From positions 1 through 34,735 of the IMG/VR virus record IMGVR_UViG_3300045999_006979: a stretch of 34,735 nt of DNA, one strand, 5' to 3'. The stretch is from a virus. Positions 18,580 to 32,337 of this stretch are shown in pieces; position 1 is the stretch's first letter; every line of letters starts with the position of its first letter. The notes below the pieces were generated by a model. That model ran no database searches, was not told the DNA's origin, and saw only the letters and a program-made list of their open reading frames with translations. The position numbers were made by a program, and so were the translations under genes.

Positions 18580-19773
18580 ATGAAAACTTTTAGGCAATTT
18601 ATAACAGAAGCACGAACTCCTGCGGGAAAGGAAGCGGAGAAAAAAGGTCTTGCCCATGCAGGAAAAGGATATTACACTGACGCTAAGGGAAACGTTGTAG
18701 CCAAGAGTGAAAAGGGTGGACAGAAGCTAGTACCTATTTCAAAGGAAGATAAGAAGAAGTTAAAAGATGGTAAACCTCTTATGGGACCATCTTCTGTTGC
18801 AGACATGCAAAACATGTCTCAACCACCACAACCCCAGTCACAATCACCAGAAACCACTGCAGAACAACCTCCAGAGCAACTTGAGCCTGGTGATGGTCCT
18901 GCAGTGGTTATTACTTTTGGAAGATTTAATCCCCCTTCAATTGGGCATGAAAACCTCATCAATGCGGTTCAGGAACAGGCAGAAGAACTGGAAGCAGAGT
19001 ATAGAATTTATCCAAGTAGAACATCAGATAAAAAGCAGAATCCGTTAGACTTCAAAACCAAGTATAATATTCTCCAGCATGTATTCACCGATCATGCAGA
19101 GAATATTATCAATGATCCCGAAAATGGAGATAATATTTACGACATTCTGACTTCACTGCATGATGAAGGATATCACCATGTAGTCATTATGTGCGGTGAC
19201 GAAAATGTTCAAAAGTATGAAAAGATTGCACAAAAATATAATGGTACAGTTTACGATTTCTATGGAGTAGAAGTTGTTGGTGCTGGAATGCCAGATCCAG
19301 ATAATGATAAATCTGAAGGCATTACAAGTTCTATGATGCGTAAGTCAGCACTTGAAAATGATTACGAGACATTCAAGCAAGGTCTTCCCGGCAATGTAAG
19401 TAAAAAGGAATGCCGTGCAATCTATAGTCAAGTTCGTAAGTCTATGAGTTTGAAGGAAGAACTTTGGATGATCGCTCCAAATCTAGATAGTAGCAATCTT
19501 CGTGAAGAATACTATCAAGGTAATATTTACAATCTCGGTGAGCATGTAATAGATTCAGTTACTGGCATATCTGGAAAGATTGTTACCAGAGGATCTAACT
19601 ATGTAATCTTTGTAGATGAGCAAAAGAAAATTCACCGTACATGGATTAAAGATCTAAGCTATCATCCAGGTCCACTTGAAATTGGAACTGATGATTACAG
19701 AGAATATCTACAACGAATGCATCCTACCGAGCCAGTTAAGTCATTTACTAAAGGTAAGCGAAAAGATAAATAA
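18580..19773 (+). CDS. Nucleotidyltransferase-fold protein with T4-type capsid-targeting N-terminus
   Basis: 397 aa from the ATG at 18580; an in-frame TTG at 18571 adds three residues but no ribosome site is seen for either. The start MKTFRQFITEA closely matches the capsid-targeting sequence of T4 internal proteins (MKTYQEFIAEA, recalled), including an I-x-E site for the prohead protease. A Pro/Gln-rich linker (75-105) leads to a HIGH-superfamily nucleotidyltransferase: ITFGRFNPPSIGHENLI (114-123 core) and TSSMMRK (249-255, the ISSTxxR motif). This combination fits NMN adenylyltransferase-like enzymes, but the substrate is not shown. A small C-terminal beta domain (310-385) follows. A late promoter motif lies upstream. 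Confidence 0.85.
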   Translation: MKTFRQFITEARTPAGKEAEKKGLAHAGKGYYTDAKGNVVAKSEKGGQKLVPISKEDKKKLKDGKPLMGPSSVADMQNMSQPPQPQSQSPETTAEQPPEQLEPGDGPAVVITFGRFNPPSIGHENLINAVQEQAEELEAEYRIYPSRTSDKKQNPLDFKTKYNILQHVFTDHAENIINDPENGDNIYDILTSLHDEGYHHVVIMCGDENVQKYEKIAQKYNGTVYDFYGVEVVGAGMPDPDNDKSEGITSSMMRKSALENDYETFKQGLPGNVSKKECRAIYSQVRKSMSLKEELWMIAPNLDSSNLREEYYQGNIYNLGEHVIDSVTGISGKIVTRGSNYVIFVDEQKKIHRTWIKDLSYHPGPLEIGTDDYREYLQRMHPTEPVKSFTKGKRKDK

Positions 19774-19804: not shown

Positions 19805-22120
19805 ATGGATTTATCTATTGTCTCACAGTTCATGTCACTAACTCCTGACATGATGTATAAGGCTACAAAGATGGTTGAAACTGTTCAATCATATTTTCCA
19901 GGTGATGTGGAATCTCAAGAGGAGTATCTAAAAGAAAATCTAATTGATCAAACTCTTGAGTATGCTTTAACTCTTCTTGAAGATAAAAAGGTTAGAGATT
20001 ACATGGGTACATCAGTGTACACCAATGGAACTACTTTTAGTGCTCCAACTCTAGCACTTTATAATGTTCCTTCTCTGCCAGAAATGAAGAAGCGCATTCA
20101 GGCTAAGCTAAATGCAAGAGGTAATAATGCAAATGTACGTAGGGAAGAAGTTGAAATTATTGATGAAAAGCTAAAAGGTCTCAAGTTCAATGGTGAGAAT
20201 CCTTGGTGGGATAGTGATGGCGATGGCAAGCCATATGAGCCAGGTGATGATGTACGTAAGACTAGAAAAGCACGTAAGACTAGAAAGGAATCTGTAGATT
20301 ATGTAGCGGATCTTTGGAGAAATAGACATTCTGATGATCAGTTAGATGAAGTAAAAGGATATGGTGGACATGTTGATCCAAAGACTGGAAAATCATCTGG
20401 CCTAAGATCACCTTCTCAGCAAGCACATACACAATATTGGGATAATGTAAGACGTGGAAAACAAGCACCTGATCCTAGAAGATCCAAGTTTTATTCTGGT
20501 GGATCAAAGGGATCGACAACTGGTGCTCAACAAGGTGAACCACCAGAATATTTTGCGAAAAACCAAAATCCTGATCTTGCAACTACTCCTGCAAATAGAA
20601 TGCGAGCAAGAGCAACTTCATTAGCAGCAAAAGGTAAGACCAAACAGGCAAATAAAATTCGTTCTGTTATGAATCGTCCAAACATGGGCGAAGAGTTTAC
20701 CGTTGAAGCAAAAAATAAAGAAGGTAAAGAGCAAGGTCTTGATGGAAAAGCTTGCTGGAAAGGTTATAGAAGAGCTGGCACTAAAATGAAGGGTGGTAAG
20801 CGTGTAGACAATTGTGTGAAAATGGAAGATGTAGATTTCGTTGCAGACTATCTAATTGCAGAGGGACTCAATGAATATGGCATTGATATCCTAATTGAAG
20901 AGATGGGTCTTGATGATTTCTGTGATTTTGTAGATGAAATTTCATCTGAAGAGTTTCTTGTAGAATGGAGACGTGGTGCTGGTGGAACTAAAGTTCGTGG
21001 CTCAGGAATGTCCAAGAGTGGCAAGTCAATTGGTTCACTAAAGGGTGGTGCTAAAGCATCTGCTATTCGTGCAACTCCTGAACACAAATCAAGAAAGGCA
21101 GAAAGAGAAAGAGAGCCATCAAAATCTTCTGGAATGAAGGATGCACTTCAGAGTCAGTCAAAAATTGCAAGGGCTAAGAAATCACAGCCAGCAACTAAAT
21201 CAACCCCAACACAAACTAAAGAAAAGGCAAAAGGTGGTATTCTTGGAGCACTCAAAGCAAGGGCAGAAAAGGATATTGCATCTGTTGGTCAATCAGTACA
21301 AACATTAAGAAACGTAGGAGCAAGACGTGCTGCAGAAGTTCAAGCAACTTATCATGCGGTTAGGGAGAAGGGAAGACAAGCAGAAACATCTCCACAAGCA
21401 ACTAGGGCAAGAAGACAAGCTACTGTTGCAGTTGGTAGAACAGCTCAGGCTACAGGTAGAAATGCAGTCAAAGCTGCAGGCGCTGCTGGAGCGGCTGCAG
21501 GACAAGCAGTAGCTGCCAGAAGATCTGGAGCAACTGTAGCTCAGGCTTTAGGTAGGGGTGTTGGAACCTTTGTTAAAAGAATGAAGAAGGAAGAGAGAGA
21601 ACTTCTAACTCATTACTTCATCGAATCTGAAATTGCATTTAATTATGATGAAGTTCAGGAAATCTTTGAGACTCTAGATCAAGAGCACTTTGATTATTTC
21701 ATGGAGCAAGCAATTCTCATGGTAGAAGAATCTGGTCCTTCTGCTCGTGAAATCATCGAAGAAACTCTTTATAATACTTTTGATATTGAAAGATTTCATT
21801 TCGCTGACTGGAGGCAGTTAACCGAAAAAAAGTCTGATGATGACGCAACTGGAAAGTTCGTCAATCTAACTCAGACAAATAGAACTGACAACACTCCTGG
21901 TGTAAGGGGTAAAAGAAAGGATGGTGTAATCATCAATCCTCAGGTTGATATGAGATGTGAAGAAGTTGAGAACATTGAAGAGAAAGCACCTCCAGGCGCT
22001 AAGTATAAAAGAATGGCTAAACATATTAAAGCTGGTTATGCAGAAGATGGACTAACCAAAAAAGAAAAGTCAATTGCATATGCAACTGCATGGAAAGCCA
22101 AAAACAGGAGTCGTAAATAA
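19805..22120 (+). CDS. Large virion-type protein with basic Ala-rich core and acidic helical modules
   Basis: 771 aa. The N-terminal helical part (1-125) is followed by ENPWWDSDGDGKPYEPGDD, with an EF-hand-like DxDxDG loop at 136-141, then a run of RKTRKARKTRK. The segment GLDGKACWKGYRRAGTKMKGGK (about 310-335) is a motif I associate with marine phage structural proteins. An acidic module DFVADYLIAEGL (about 341-380) precedes a long basic Ala-rich region (380-590), then another acidic module (596-640). The C-terminus APPGAKYKRMAKHIKAGY is basic. It resembles cyanophage proteins labelled structural or prohead core. The basic centre suggests DNA contact inside the head. Function not established. 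Confidence 0.8.
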   Translation: MDLSIVSQFMSLTPDMMYKATKMVETVQSYFPGDVESQEEYLKENLIDQTLEYALTLLEDKKVRDYMGTSVYTNGTTFSAPTLALYNVPSLPEMKKRIQAKLNARGNNANVRREEVEIIDEKLKGLKFNGENPWWDSDGDGKPYEPGDDVRKTRKARKTRKESVDYVADLWRNRHSDDQLDEVKGYGGHVDPKTGKSSGLRSPSQQAHTQYWDNVRRGKQAPDPRRSKFYSGGSKGSTTGAQQGEPPEYFAKNQNPDLATTPANRMRARATSLAAKGKTKQANKIRSVMNRPNMGEEFTVEAKNKEGKEQGLDGKACWKGYRRAGTKMKGGKRVDNCVKMEDVDFVADYLIAEGLNEYGIDILIEEMGLDDFCDFVDEISSEEFLVEWRRGAGGTKVRGSGMSKSGKSIGSLKGGAKASAIRATPEHKSRKAEREREPSKSSGMKDALQSQSKIARAKKSQPATKSTPTQTKEKAKGGILGALKARAEKDIASVGQSVQTLRNVGARRAAEVQATYHAVREKGRQAETSPQATRARRQATVAVGRTAQATGRNAVKAAGAAGAAAGQAVAARRSGATVAQALGRGVGTFVKRMKKEERELLTHYFIESEIAFNYDEVQEIFETLDQEHFDYFMEQAILMVEESGPSAREIIEETLYNTFDIERFHFADWRQLTEKKSDDDATGKFVNLTQTNRTDNTPGVRGKRKDGVIINPQVDMRCEEVENIEEKAPPGAKYKRMAKHIKAGYAEDGLTKKEKSIAYATAWKAKNRSRK

Positions 22121-22126
22121 TAAATA
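22119..22126 (+). promoter_or_regulatory. Late promoter motif
   Basis: AATAAATA overlapping the stop of the large virion-type gene, 26 bases before the ATG at 22153. Confidence 0.6.
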
Positions 22127-22152
22127 TAGATGATCCATTATAGGAGAAAATC

Positions 22153-22326
22153 ATGGGAGTATTAGTAGACGTAGTTAAGCCACTACTCTTAGCTGCAATG
22201 AATAGTTGCCACACTAAGAGACTTGTTTGTGAACTACTTGATCGTTATGTAAATACCACTGATAATGATATTGATAATGTACTTGCTGCAACTGTAAGAA
22301 CTGCACTTCTTAGAGATTGTAAGTGA
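22153..22326 (+). CDS. Small hypothetical protein (57 aa)
   Basis: Starts MGVLVDVVKPLLLAAMNSCH and ends ATVRTALLRDCK. Probably an all-helical protein with three Cys; no family recognised. Ribosome site TAGGAGA lies 6 bases before the ATG and a late promoter motif just upstream. Its stop overlaps the GTG start of the next small membrane protein, so the two are likely coupled. Confidence 0.7.
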   Translation: MGVLVDVVKPLLLAAMNSCHTKRLVCELLDRYVNTTDNDIDNVLAATVRTALLRDCK

Positions 22327-22475
22327 TTGAATGTTTACTTCTGAACTGGGGAGTAGAGTTAATTTTAATTCTACTCTTAGCAGGTTCAGAGTACTTAGGT
22401 AAAACAAAACGATTTAAAGAGAATACTATAATAGATTTTACTAAAAATACAATTAAACGTATGTTGGGGAGGTGA
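22323..22475 (+). CDS. Small single-pass membrane protein (50 aa)
   Basis: Starts with GTG overlapping the previous stop (GTGA): MIECLLLNWGVELILILLAG, then SEYLGKTKRFKEN and a basic tail ending KRMLGR. One hydrophobic segment at about residues 4-20 precedes a positively charged cytoplasmic tail. No family recognised. A holin, antiholin or virion membrane protein are all possible. The GTG is the only start that keeps the hydrophobic segment, and coupling to the upstream gene supports it. The stop lies in the loop of the terminator hairpin. Confidence 0.6.
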   Translation: MIECLLLNWGVELILILLLAGSEYLGKTKRFKENTIIDFTKNTIKRMLGR

Positions 22476-22488
22476 CTCCCCATTTTTT
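22466..22488 (+). terminator. Intrinsic terminator fused to a late promoter
   Basis: GGGGAG (22466-22471), tetraloop GTGA, CTCCCC (22476-22481), then ATTTTTT. The last T is also the first base of the late promoter TATAAATA. Confidence 0.85.
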
Positions 22489-22495
22489 ATAAATA
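22488..22495 (+). promoter_or_regulatory. Late promoter (perfect TATAAATA)
   Basis: Exact T4-type late promoter, 33 bases before the ATG at 22529, directly after a terminator. Confidence 0.75.
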
Positions 22496-22528
22496 TTAAT
22501 AGAATAAAAATTTCAAGAGGATTTTTAG

Positions 22529-23131
22529 ATGTCTTTATACGGAAGAACTGACTCTAACGCAAACAAGACCAAAGTTGAAAGAACTATTGCTCCTTCATCC
22601 CAGGCTAAAACTATTGTTTTTGTTGATGAAACTGAGGCTCGTTTAAACGAAAACCGTCAGCGTGGTATTGATGGTCCTGGCTGGTGGGCGTATTTTACCT
22701 ATACTGATAATGCAGGGAATACTCGCCACAAGGCAGAGAAGCTAGTTGCACTTGGAAATCCAGATACTACTGAAACTCAGGCTGATGACGCTATTGTAGC
22801 TGACGTTGCATCTTCAGTAACAATTAATGTTGCATATCCACAGAATGCTACTACAACATCTGGCGGGGCAACATTTACTGTATCTGGACAAACTACTACC
22901 ACTGGAACTCCAGGAACTTTACTATACCAGTGGCAAATTCAAACCCCAACTGGTACTCGTTGGACCAACCTAACAAATACTGGAATTTACACTGGTTCTA
23001 CCACTCATACCCTAACTTTAACTGGAGCAACATCTGCAGTTTCTGGAAGTAAGTATAGAGTAAAAATCACCTCTACTGGTGGTACTGAAGAAGTAATTTC
23101 TAGAACTGCCACACTAACATTTGGAACCTGA
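22529..23131 (+). CDS. Virion decoration-type protein with Ig-like domain
   Basis: 200 aa. The N-terminal domain MSLYGRTDSNANKTKVERTI... with FVDETEAR and GIDGPGWWAYFTYTD (1-90) is one I associate with T4-like cyanophage virion proteins. The C-terminal half (about 95-200) is a Thr/Ser-rich beta sandwich: TINVAYPQNATTTSGGATFTV, LLYQWQIQTPTGTRWTNL, SGSKYRVKITSTGG. The YQWQ strand and the tyrosine near the end are typical Ig-like features. Surface decoration (Hoc-like) is a reasonable guess. A perfect late promoter and the ribosome site AAGAGG precede it. Confidence 0.82.
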   Translation: MSLYGRTDSNANKTKVERTIAPSSQAKTIVFVDETEARLNENRQRGIDGPGWWAYFTYTDNAGNTRHKAEKLVALGNPDTTETQADDAIVADVASSVTINVAYPQNATTTSGGATFTVSGQTTTTGTPGTLLYQWQIQTPTGTRWTNLTNTGIYTGSTTHTLTLTGATSAVSGSKYRVKITSTGGTEEVISRTATLTFGT

Positions 23132-23137
23132 TAATAA

Positions 23138-23500
23138 ATGAGATTTAATGAGTTGAATGATGATAACTTTTTGTTATTTGCAATTAAACATTATGACAAC
23201 CCAAATGCGATGACAAAAGATGATTTTCTTGAAGACCTGAAACGATTTAAGTATATCAAAAGATTACTTAAAAGATATGATAAAACAGGAATTCTGAAAA
23301 CTCATCTTTTGTTAAATCATATTATAGTTGTATATAATATTTTCGGTGACGCTGCGACCCCTTTATTGTTTTTCAAAATTGAAACTCAATATTGGACATA
23401 TTTGAAGTCCTTTATATTATTTTTAGATCGACTGGAACCAGACACTATTCCCCATATAAGTCCAGATAATTATTGTTTAGAAGAACTCAACAAGATATGA
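23138..23500 (+). CDS. Hypothetical protein (120 aa), cyanophage type
   Basis: Starts MRFNELNDDNFLLFAIKHYD. Helical, with many Leu, Phe and Tyr and a basic patch (LKRFKYIKRLLKRYDKTG). The LLNHIIVVYNIFGDAATPLLFF segment is hydrophobic but interrupted by charged and helix-breaking residues. I recall similar proteins in T4-like cyanophages but no function. It follows the Ig-like gene by six bases and overlaps the next start (ATGA), so all are in one late unit. Confidence 0.78.
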   Translation: MRFNELNDDNFLLFAIKHYDNPNAMTKDDFLEDLKRFKYIKRLLKRYDKTGILKTHLLLNHIIVVYNIFGDAATPLLFFKIETQYWTYLKSFILFLDRLEPDTIPHISPDNYCLEELNKI

Positions 23501-28779: not shown

Positions 28780-28787
28780 TATAAATA
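28780..28787 (+). promoter_or_regulatory. Late promoter (perfect TATAAATA)
   Basis: Exact late promoter after nrdB, 31 bases before the ATG at 28819. It is followed directly by a hairpin CTATAAA-GTAACA-TTTATAG (28791-28810) in the leader. Confidence 0.75.
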
Positions 28788-28818: not shown

Positions 28819-30126
28819 ATGACAAGTACCCAAAAACTTTATGAGTCTTACTTCGCCGTATATGACGACGAACTAAGAGAAGATATTTTCGCAGTTGAAG
28901 AAGATTTATCATTTGTTGATGATCTTTCCGATAATGAGCTTACCATAATTATGGAAGCCATTTTTTCTGAAGGTGAGTTCAAACTTAACGAGTGTGTGCA
29001 ATTACTTGACTCTCAGATTCTTTCCGAAGAAAGTGAAATGGAAAGAATGAATAGACTGCAAAACAAAGCAACTCGTGAGAGAAAATCCGCAGCGGCAACC
29101 GCAAAGAGAGAAAAGTCTGCTGAGCGTGAAAGAGTTGGCAGAAAACATGCAATAAAAAGAATGCAAGTTGCTGCAGTTCGTGCTGGTCGTAATATTGCAG
29201 ATAGAGCAAAGACTTTAGGTGCTGGTGCTGCTTCTGCTGCTATGGGAGGCGCTGCTGAAGTTGGACGCAAACTATCATCTGCCAAGGAGAAAGTTAAAGG
29301 ATTTTTGAGTAATGTTAAAAAATCCGCAAAAGCTGGGTATAGTGCTGCCAAGAAAGAATTTAGTGGACAAGCAGCAAAGGAAGCAAAGGCAAGAGAAACT
29401 GGTCGTCAAATGAGAAGAGCAGCAAGAGCCCAAGCTTCTGCTGCAAGACGTGCGGATACTTCTGAGTTTGAATCAAAACCATCATCATCAGCATCATCAT
29501 CAAAACCAACATGGAGACCTGGTGGGCAGAATGTAAACAGAACATTCAAACCTCAGCAGGGTCCAAAACCAGCATCATCATCATCATCATCAAAACCAAC
29601 TTGGAGACCTGGTGGACAGAATGTAAACAGAACATTCAAACCCCAACAAGGTCCATCTCCAGCACCAAAAGGTCCAAGATCTCCTGCTCCTTATAGGAAT
29701 GTAGGCGGTGCAATTAAAAATTCTGTTGAACCTTCTTCAACCGGAAGAGCACTTCCTCCTGTGGGTGCAGGAACACGAACTCCTGGTGGAAATCTAAGAC
29801 GCCCATCTCAAAGAGCTTTAGCTATGAGTAGAGCTATAAAACAAGGAAGAAAGAGACTCGGTGAGGATTTTGATTTTATTCTTGAATATCTAATTAACGA
29901 AGGTTATGCTGAAACCTTTGACCAGGCAGTTGAAGTTCTTGATTCATTTAGCGATCATGAAGTAAATCAGATTGTTGAAAACTATTATTCAGAAGAAAGA
30001 GAAGATCTTTATGATGTAGTTCTTGCTCATCTCCTAGATGAAGGCTATGCCGATACTCCAGAAGATGCTCAATCTATCATGGCTAACATGTCAGATGCAT
30101 GGATCTCTGAGATTCTAGAAGGCTGA
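28819..30126 (+). CDS. Basic, Ala-rich virion-type protein with acidic modules and internal repeats
   Basis: 435 aa. The N-terminal acidic part (1-75) contains LSFVDDLSDNELTIIMEAIF. Residues 80-220 are a basic Ala/Lys/Arg-rich region (AAVRAGRNIADRAKTLGAG, KKSAKAGYSAAKKEF), like a histone-tail or DNA-packing segment. A tandem 30-residue repeat with KPTWRPGGQNVNRTFKPQQG starts near 228 and 258. The C-terminus holds two acidic modules, FILEYLINEGYAETFDQAVEVL (from about 349) and VVLAHLLDEGYADTPEDAQSIM (from about 391). Same overall design as the protein at 19805-22120. Probably in the prohead core or capsid interior; unproven. Confidence 0.8.
   Translation: MTSTQKLYESYFAVYDDELREDIFAVEEDLSFVDDLSDNELTIIMEAIFSEGEFKLNECVQLLDSQILSEESEMERMNRLQNKATRERKSAAATAKREKSAERERVGRKHAIKRMQVAAVRAGRNIADRAKTLGAGAASAAMGGAAEVGRKLSSAKEKVKGFLSNVKKSAKAGYSAAKKEFSGQAAKEAKARETGRQMRRAARAQASAARRADTSEFESKPSSSASSSKPTWRPGGQNVNRTFKPQQGPKPASSSSSSKPTWRPGGQNVNRTFKPQQGPSPAPKGPRSPAPYRNVGGAIKNSVEPSSTGRALPPVGAGTRTPGGNLRRPSQRALAMSRAIKQGRKRLGEDFDFILEYLINEGYAETFDQAVEVLDSFSDHEVNQIVENYYSEEREDLYDVVLAHLLDEGYADTPEDAQSIMANMSDAWISEILEG
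29501..29680 (+). repeat. Two tandem 90-bp units within the basic virion-type gene
   Basis: Bases 29501-29590 and 29591-29680 repeat with period 90; the first about 65 bases of each unit are nearly identical, and both are preceded by TCATCA runs encoding Ser. The reading frame is preserved. Confidence 0.85.
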
Positions 30127-32043: not shown

Positions 32044-32337
32044 ATGAAAACCTTTCAAGAGTTTTGTTTAGAAGCATATATAGTAAATCTTAATGAATCT
32101 ATTTTAGATGGGTTTGATGATGCTCATAAAAAACTTATGCAACAAGATCTAGAACGACATCAAAGACAACTAGATAGAATTAAAAAAATGAGACAAATGG
32201 CTGCATCGGTTGTTGGTGATGAACCATCAAAACCCAGTAAGCCGTCTTCTAAAAAAACAACAAAAAGTCCACAAGAAAGAATCAAAAAAATCAAAGGTAT
32301 AATAGACCGTGAGCTATCACATGATGACCCAAAATGA
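32044..32337 (+). CDS. Small internal-protein-like gene with capsid-targeting N-terminus (97 aa)
   Basis: Begins MKTFQEFCLEAYIVNLNE, close to the T4 capsid-targeting sequence MKTYQEFIAEA (recalled) and to the N-terminus of the nucleotidyltransferase at 18580. A possible prohead protease site LNE follows at about residue 18. The rest is a charged helix (KLMQQDLERHQRQLDRIKKM) and a basic Lys/Ser/Pro-rich tail. No enzyme motif. Small, basic and CTS-bearing is the profile of T4 internal proteins IPI-IPIII, which are packaged and injected with the DNA. Activity unknown. Confidence 0.8.
   Translation: MKTFQEFCLEAYIVNLNESILDGFDDAHKKLMQQDLERHQRQLDRIKKMRQMAASVVGDEPSKPSKPSSKKTTKSPQERIKKIKGIIDRELSHDDPK

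Follow-up and report, generated by a model that had tools for sequence, protein, structure and literature searches.

Phage T4 carries an enzyme, Alt, in its virion and delivers it with its DNA, and the closest described counterparts of the system reported here are the T4 internal proteins, which are packaged by an N-terminal capsid-targeting sequence (CTS). Excerpts from one source describe the T-even internal proteins as highly diverse, with the tag alone conserved (PMC3012670). Suppressor mutagenesis of the T4 IPIII tag, as related in part of a review, placed targeting mainly at positions 4 and 7 and processing at positions 8 and 10 (PMC9026906). The virion RNA polymerase of phage N4 is likewise an enzyme carried in the virion and delivered with the DNA (excerpts of PMC10665884). 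Alt and the N4 polymerase are different enzymes from the one considered here, and the likeness drawn is one of delivery in the virion. The enzymes found in several cyanophage virion proteomes are unexplained and have in part been suspected to be contamination; a CTS offers a mechanism for their presence. One of them, T4-GC190, is a cyanophage core gene according to excerpts of PMC3037559, so the question is a broad one. Sources on virion proteomes, the T4 tag, and related phages, all available in part (PMC3037559, PMC10665884, PMC9602691, PMC9146016, PMC9026906, PMC9964418, PMC3012670, and PMC10229621), already include a cyanophage virion NMNAT-like protein that possibly enters the cell (PMC10665884 among them). 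Virion presence and a role in NAD are therefore published, and what is new here is the CTS as the route into the virion: in the literature searched, which lay outside most subscription journals and all bioRxiv preprints, we found no link between the CTS and cyanophages, and "capsid targeting" and "cyanophage" co-occurred only via the title of a reference.

The window, by which we mean the whole stretch of DNA analyzed, comprises 34,735 bases and is a virus record in IMG/VR. A 172-kb IMG/VR record (G001) covers nearly all of it at 99.9 to 100% identity, with a 91% stretch at the window end. G001 contains a photosystem reaction-center gene (PF00124), a T4-type major capsid gene, and, about 1.6 kb from the latter, a prohead protease gene (Peptidase_S77, PF03420); the window's phage is therefore a T4-like cyanophage. 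Gp23 was present in 7/7 related records. The window encodes a late sigma factor, an SbcC/D-like nuclease, clamp, clamp loader, hsp20, DNA polymerase, UvsX, replicative helicase, and MazG, followed by an island with the open reading frame (ORF) under study and head genes and then by primase and both ribonucleotide reductase subunits. The same gene order occurs in isolates Syn9, S-SM1, S-SCSM1, and S-SZBM1, and the slot itself, with mazG upstream and primase and nrdA downstream, is common to Syn9, S-SM1, and S-SCSM1. The ORF and its parts are as follows.

18580 to 19773, plus strand: CTS-tagged nucleotidyltransferase gene, 397 amino acids (aa), T4-GC190 / phrog_395 "cytidyltransferase" (ORF, homology)
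18580 to 18612, plus strand: CTS, MKTFRQFITEA, with a predicted prohead protease cut after E10, between 18609 and 18610 (sequence)
18613 to 18765, plus strand: post-CTS mini-domain, residues 12 to 62, common to S-CREM2 kinase gp14, S-CREM2 gp12 (annotated as Cas9), and S-CRM01 130c and 128c (HMM search, models)
18766 to 18897, plus strand: variable linker, residues 63 to 106, of low confidence from about residue 70 (alignment, model)
18898 to 19449, plus strand: HIGH-type nucleotidyltransferase domain, residues 107 to 290 (Pfam, model, fold search)
18919 to 18948, plus strand: active-site motif GRFNPPSIGH, residues 114 to 123 (alignment)
19321 to 19341, plus strand: motif ITSSMMR, residues 248 to 254, with S251 and R254 invariant in 84 sequences (alignment)
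19462 to 19674, plus strand: C-terminal SH3/KOW-like module, residues 295 to 365, a separate ORF in P-HM1 and ACG-2014e (model, fold search, HMM)
22529 to 23131, plus strand: head protein (phrog_613), in the same island (PHROGs)

The ORF opens with ATG and runs without an internal stop; a TTG nine bases upstream is also in frame, and homologues start at the ATG. By tblastn, homology extended from residue 1 over 98 to 100% of the query among the 40 matches listed. Because it is homologous along its whole length to SSM1_190 and Syn9 gp184 and lies in a syntenic position, the predicted product is identified as the cyanophage "cytidyltransferase" T4-GC190. Homology over the full length holds for many isolates (S-SM1, S-SCSM1, S-SZBM1, and S-CREM2 carry T4-GC190); the best full-length matches among the isolate proteins are ~39 to 40% identical to the window protein. 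The window also departs from the family in having E-N at residues 208 and 209, where D and R are each found in 81/84 rows; this replacement of a near-invariant D208-R209 in the window's lineage could matter for activity. In the islands of S-SCSM1 and S-SZBM1 that are syntenic to the window's, several genes encode virion-detected proteins. By eye, the large Lys/Ala-rich proteins encoded at 19805 to 22120 and 28819 to 30126 resemble S-SM1_191 and Syn9 gp185 and are probably virion proteins. The sequence TATAAATA, which we take to be a T4-type late promoter -10 element, occurs at 22488 to 22495 and 28780 to 28787, ~40 bases upstream of the 22529 head protein gene and of the 28819 ORF; as a promoter signal it is weak, because the window holds 4 matches versus 2.6 expected, and the scan of the window found none near the start at 18580.

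An earlier note on this DNA had matched the first 11 residues to the T4 CTS and had seen in them an I-x-E site for the prohead protease, and both observations were borne out. In NC_000866, the N terminus of T4 ipII and that of ipIII are MKTYQEFIAEA, as the note had given; the window protein is identical to this sequence at 6 of positions 2 to 11 and contains I-T-E/A (the slash marks the presumed cut), a site judged here at the level of sequence. When 964 candidate starts in the window were ranked by identity to the T4 CTS, the start at 32044 was best (7/10) and that at 18580 was second (6/10), the next reaching 4, so that the likeness exceeds chance. We then examined conservation in 84 diverse sequences, the window's included, with pairwise identities of <82%; alignment A4 omitted L166 and L197, which are truncated at the 5' end. 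As aligned, F occupies position 4 in 79/84 (L in 4 and I in 1) and position 7 in all 84, position 8 always has one of L, I, F, and V, and position 10 has E in 83/84; M1 and K2 are each present in 83/84, and positions 3, 5, 6, and 9 vary. Averaged by stretch, the most common residue had a frequency of 0.76 for residues 1 to 11, 0.54 for 12 to 20, 0.62 for 21 to 50, 0.33 for 51 to 107, and 0.76 for 108 to 130. Since the constraint falls at positions 4, 7, 8, and 10, evolution has kept what matters in the T4 experiments.

The CTS motif was found in 85/86 IMG/VR loci in the first two scans and in 75/80 more distant loci in the third, 2 of the 5 misses being cut at the 5' end. The scan patterns all lay outside the tag; the second and third scans took the best 80 of 579 and the best 80 of 587 relatives, with slightly different forms of the regular expression, and 16 second-scan loci (L031 to L046) repeat contigs of the first. 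Scanning genome contigs yielded 4 loci, of which three lie in MAGs. Mere shared ancestry of close relatives was ruled out as the source of the common N terminus because S-SZBM1_140 and S-CREM2 gp154 lack ~75 residues between the tag and the enzyme and have kept the CTS. Relatives in P-HM1, ACG-2014e, and jumbo phages have no CTS, and the start in HTVC008M is degenerate, so packaging is not universal. Major capsid proteins carry similar presumed cut sites (LLTE/A in S-CREM2, ILTE/A, FLAE/A, and, in the window's phage, VLSE/V). The linker that the earlier note had placed behind the tag was in part confirmed, as model confidence is low from about residue 70, but residues 12 to 62 form a conserved small module.

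The tag thus resembles those of T4 ipII and ipIII in having aromatic or aliphatic residues at positions 4 and 7, an aliphatic residue at 8, E10, and A11, and small basic CTS proteins are also encoded by the window's phage. It differs in that the cargo is a conserved multidomain enzyme in which an additional module follows the tag, in that the phage infects cyanobacteria, and in that it is known here from sequence. The system is a variant of the T4 internal-protein system that carries an enzyme.

We consider it fairly probable that the product is a T4-like cyanophage cargo enzyme that is docked by its CTS, cleaved after E10, held inside the head, ejected with the DNA, and active in nucleotidyl transfer at time zero, likeliest on NMN or NaMN; its location inside the head, cleavage, ejection, and substrate are what we infer. 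Through F4 and F7, the newly made enzyme would dock on the scaffold core of the prohead. Cleavage by the prohead protease after E10 (F-I-T-E/A) would follow, as presumably happens to the major capsid protein at its comparable site. The mature enzyme, consisting of the mini-domain, linker, HIGH nucleotidyltransferase, and SH3-like module, would stay in the head with the DNA, enter the cell alongside it, and there, at time zero, catalyze nucleotidyl transfer with an NTP as donor and with NMN or NaMN as the likeliest acceptor substrate, feeding NAD.

The nucleotidyltransferase domain was claimed from the outset to be intact and of the HIGH type, and this is supported by a PF01467 (CTP_transf_like) match of 23.9 bits against a cut-off of 21, by matches of fold, and by the invariance of R115, H123, S251, and R254 in the 84 sequences; in GRFNPPSIGH, S replaces the H/T at the first position of the HIGH motif. 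The AlphaFold (AF2) model had a pLDDT of 84, with a low-confidence linker. Foldseek ranked NaMN/NMN adenylyltransferases first, but VIA-align placed NadD, PPAT, and NadM together at a Z score of about 12 to 13; by fold the three are tied, the best matches being NadD/NMNAT and PPAT at a Z score of about 13. The alignment with Methanobacterium NMNAT starts at residue 108 of the model and residue 4 of the chain, so that, if it is gapless, R115 and H123 would fall on NMNAT R11 and H19, mutated sites named in the entry titles, and R254 probably corresponds to R136 in the modeled superposition. Cellular NadD, NadM, and NadR have in common with the window enzyme the fold, the GRFxPxxxGH-type motif, and the second motif. 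They differ from it, however, in sequence (12 to 19% identity among the matches listed, and below every curated cut-off) and in that the window enzyme is fused to a CTS, a mini-domain, and an SH3-like module.

The specificity proposed in the earlier note, that of an NMN adenylyltransferase, fared less well than the domain itself. Among NCBIfam models, 10/10 family members matched at least one NMN/NaMN adenylyltransferase model, all below cut-off; for the window protein the best NadD/NadM/NadR-type model scored 15.2 bits against a cut-off of 164. We rate NMN or NaMN the leading guess from sequence, at roughly even chances. The main alternative is that the enzyme is packaged likewise but acts on something else, for example in RNA or DNA end processing with DUF6267, in acyl adenylation, or in CDP/FAD-type chemistry. 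The tie of NadD, NadM, and PPAT by fold is consistent with this, as are the best sequence match in the PDB, UPF0348 protein MJ0951 (E value of 0.06, ranking above MJ0541 and an NMN adenylyltransferase/Nudix enzyme), FAD_syn matches in 12/84 members, and the joining of the domain in S-PM2 to DUF6267, with its ligase-like KxDG and EGxV motifs. Against it, the sub-cut-off matches of all 10 members were to NMN/NaMN models, no PPAT or glycerol-3-phosphate cytidylyltransferase model was listed for them, and an FAD-synthetase model was listed once; moreover, DUF6267 had no match in the window or the 172-kb record, a negative that shows little because that search matched nowhere at all. A substrate other than NMN or NaMN is thus a serious possibility, if one that we hold somewhat below even.

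DUF6267 (T4-GC71; L028 31758 to 32951, L115 1817 to 3022, L111 1547 to 2779, and L002 5037 to 5999) has invariant KxDG and EGxV, which we take to be motifs like those of covalent nucleotidyltransferases and ligases, and adjoins or stands near the cytidyltransferase gene. The earlier note also suggested that the phage could bring NAD-synthesis capacity into the cell with its DNA, for example to counter NAD-depleting defenses, which would be a conjectural use of the enzyme. One type of NAD-restoring antidefense pathway pairs NAMPT with NMNAT; a partner gene of this kind, NAPRT/NAMPT (PF04095), was found in 0/7 related records, perhaps incomplete, among them the 172-kb G001. SSM1_208 (L203 35919 to 36380), annotated as "NAD synthetase," has 153 aa and is GIY-YIG-like by eye; the label is a probable misannotation, and we did not adopt this protein as an NAD synthetase partner in S-SM1.

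A second alternative is that the protein is a CTS-packaged core or DNA-condensing internal protein whose catalysis is unimportant in the new host cell. The same tag directs the packaging of the T4 internal proteins, which the other gene-like CTS proteins encoded by the window's phage resemble in being small and basic.

32044 to 32337, plus strand: second CTS-bearing ORF, MKTFQEFCLEA..., 97 aa, basic (pI 9.6 after residue 10) (closest of the 964 window starts to the T4 CTS)
G001 21953 to 23196, minus strand: two tandem basic proteins of 201 and 211 aa with starts MKTFAQFLEEA and MKTYSEFLLES (L219 2154 to 2759 and 2762 to 3397) (candidate internal proteins)

The first of these is, by its sequence, a candidate internal protein. 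Neither it nor the 211-aa protein had relatives by tblastn in the phage collection, and the 97-, 201-, and 211-aa proteins had no match in PHROGs; such relative-less small basic CTS proteins recall the diversity of the T-even internal proteins behind a conserved tag. In the enzyme, however, the catalytic residues are invariant in 84 sequences, and stand-alone homologues without a CTS retain the same motifs. A purely structural or condensing role is therefore unlikely, and we return to packaging of an active enzyme.

Orthologues of the enzyme have been reported in four virion proteomes. Sullivan et al. (2010) detected the T4-GC190 "putative citidylyltransferase" in S-SM1 virions, according to the main text, and reported no detection of it in virions of S-PM2 (PMC3037559). 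Excerpts of the other reports record detection by mass spectrometry (MS) of S-SZBM1_140 (2 peptides) and S-CREM2 gp154 (3 unique peptides) and detection in virions of S-SCSM1 ORF91, named "NMNAT." All four virion-detected orthologues have a CTS start, among them SSM1_190, which is T4-GC190 (MKKFSAFLNEA), and ORF91 (MKSFLQFLKEA). The S-PM2 GC190 protein is without a CTS: its nucleotidyltransferase domain comes after a DUF6267 domain, and the reading frame is broken in the record. S-PM2, with no CTS and no detection, is one natural negative and not a statistic. The frame (~103 to 104.8 kb; L232) is interrupted inside DUF6267, by sequencing error, decay, or programmed frameshift. In S-CREM1, the orthologue is tagged (MKRYTNFLSEA); 14 virion proteins were detected in that phage, and the available text on them does not name the enzyme (PMC9964418).

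To see how the tag is distributed on other proteins, we used motifs in successive versions: a narrow one, a looser one with a small or polar residue required after E, and a "strict" one from which this requirement was dropped after S-CREM2 N termini had been seen (the N termini compared leave out the MS proteins gp85 and gp130). Strict MKxFxxF..E-type starts gave 6 matches in each of 6,236 (S-CREM2), 6,833, and 4,313 candidate starts, versus shuffled means of 0.43, 0.59, and 0.64, which rules out that such starts are simply common in these genomes. In the 172-kb record, two of the six appear to be noncoding; of S-SZBM1's six, 2 are not at annotated starts and that of S-SZBM1_57 (MQVIDDFLPEE) looks like chance. 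All six in S-CREM2 are annotated (gp6 SAM hydrolase, gp13, gp14 APH-like kinase with a GTG start, gp136, gp154, and gp175), and five, all except gp175, are among the 52 MS-detected of 219 proteins (P = 0.003; 0.011 without gp154); these P values are optimistic, since the motif had been widened on seeing S-CREM2. The second, looser version gave three annotated starts in S-CREM2 (gp136, gp154, and gp175), two of them MS detected (P = 0.14). In S-SZBM1, 1/4 annotated strict starts was detected, that of the enzyme (P = 0.45), and 1/3 with the second pattern (P = 0.36). S-CREM2 and S-SZBM1 combined gave 6/10 strict starts detected (P = 0.004) and, without the enzyme family, 4/8 (P = 0.041). In S-SCSM1 (first 193,999 of 228,827 bases), with the motif fixed beforehand, the two annotated starts were those of the enzyme, a virion protein, and SSCSM1_30, which is not labeled as one. 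Aside from the enzyme, then, CTS-like starts were reported as virion proteins in 4/5 cases in S-CREM2, 0/3 in S-SZBM1, and 0/1 in S-SCSM1 (194 of 229 kb), so that detection of other CTS proteins rests on S-CREM2 and a CTS-like start is no general predictor of presence in the virion. An even looser motif gave mostly internal or noncoding hits. S-SZBM1_191 and S-SCSM1_30 (L029 23812 to 24129 and L240 44215 to 44535) are similar to each other, ~105 aa long, and start with MKSFKSFLSESVNISG and MKTFKQFMSESVNISG; their neighbors were reported in virions and these two were not.

We consider it very unlikely that an unrelated helix accounts for the N-terminal motif and lysate carry-over for the virion detections: the authors of two of the proteomes, in the excerpts available, raised carry-over as possible, the reported peptide counts are low (2 and 3), and S-SZBM1_191 and S-SCSM1_30 have conserved CTS-like starts on proteins unreported in virions, but the enzyme was detected, as far as these reports were available, in four separate preparations, the constraint falls at the T4 targeting and processing positions, and the two undetected proteins have only ~105 aa, the S-SCSM1 gene lying between two labeled virion genes. 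Capsid packaging through a T4-type CTS, the central prediction of the earlier note, is thus well supported from sequence by the constraint at T4 positions, together with orthologues in four virion proteomes and a CTS-less S-PM2 orthologue that went undetected.

The module directly behind the tag also occurs on other proteins. Residues 11 to 60 of the window protein are modeled with pLDDT block means of 88 to 95; modeled alone, the mini-domain had a pLDDT of 69.6 and no PDB match at an E value of ≤0.001, which is not proof of a new fold. We searched 13 groups of phage sequence (S-CREM2, S-SZBM1, and G001 complete and the others in part) with an HMM built solely from residues 12 to 64 of the enzyme family. 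Beyond the enzyme family it matched S-CREM2 gp14 (two copies), S-CREM2 gp12, the S-CRM01 kinase 130c, and S-CRM01 128c, with nothing further at an E value of 0.5 in the 13 groups. The tag and module therefore sit on unrelated enzymes, a kinase and a Cas9-annotated protein, and excerpts of the proteome report list both gp12 and gp14 as virion detected. A passage in PMC10665884 describes its kinase as 32% identical to one detected in S-CRM01 virions; 130c, at 31.8% identity, is very probably the kinase meant. The mini-domain might serve in docking, either to the core or to DNA.

The conservation of gp13-like and gp12-like proteins depends less on motif tuning: MKxLxxFLxE is kept in gp13-like proteins of 5/5 phages compared, and an F/L-xx-F-I/L/M-x-E-A core from residue 19 or 20 is kept in gp12-like proteins of 5/5. 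Kinase orthologues are CTS-like in 3/5 compared (S-CREM2 with the GTG start, S-CRM01, and S-B68) and degenerate in S-N03 and MA01. In the S-CREM2 gp6-gp15 region (L200 3837 to 13331), the virion-detected SAM hydrolase, Cas9-annotated protein, APH-like kinase, and small proteins are clustered, several with CTS-like starts; gp12 has an HNH-like stretch by eye, and no Pfam family was found in it. Evidence for the tag on other virion cargo is suggestive and mixed. We tentatively hypothesize, with slightly less than even confidence, a cargo code in which a T4-type CTS, often with the mini-domain, is carried by varied cyanophage enzymes (nucleotidyltransferase, APH-like kinase, SAM hydrolase, and HNH/Cas9-annotated protein) and by small basic proteins, all of which would be packaged and injected as early effectors.

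The CTS is a sequence-level prediction that can be checked against existing mass spectrometry data. If it is true, common viruses of aquatic cyanobacteria would inject an enzyme at time zero, and an 11-residue tag would let metagenomes be mined for injected effectors. If the cargo code also proves true, the injected proteome of uncultured T4-like viruses would be predictable from sequence alone.
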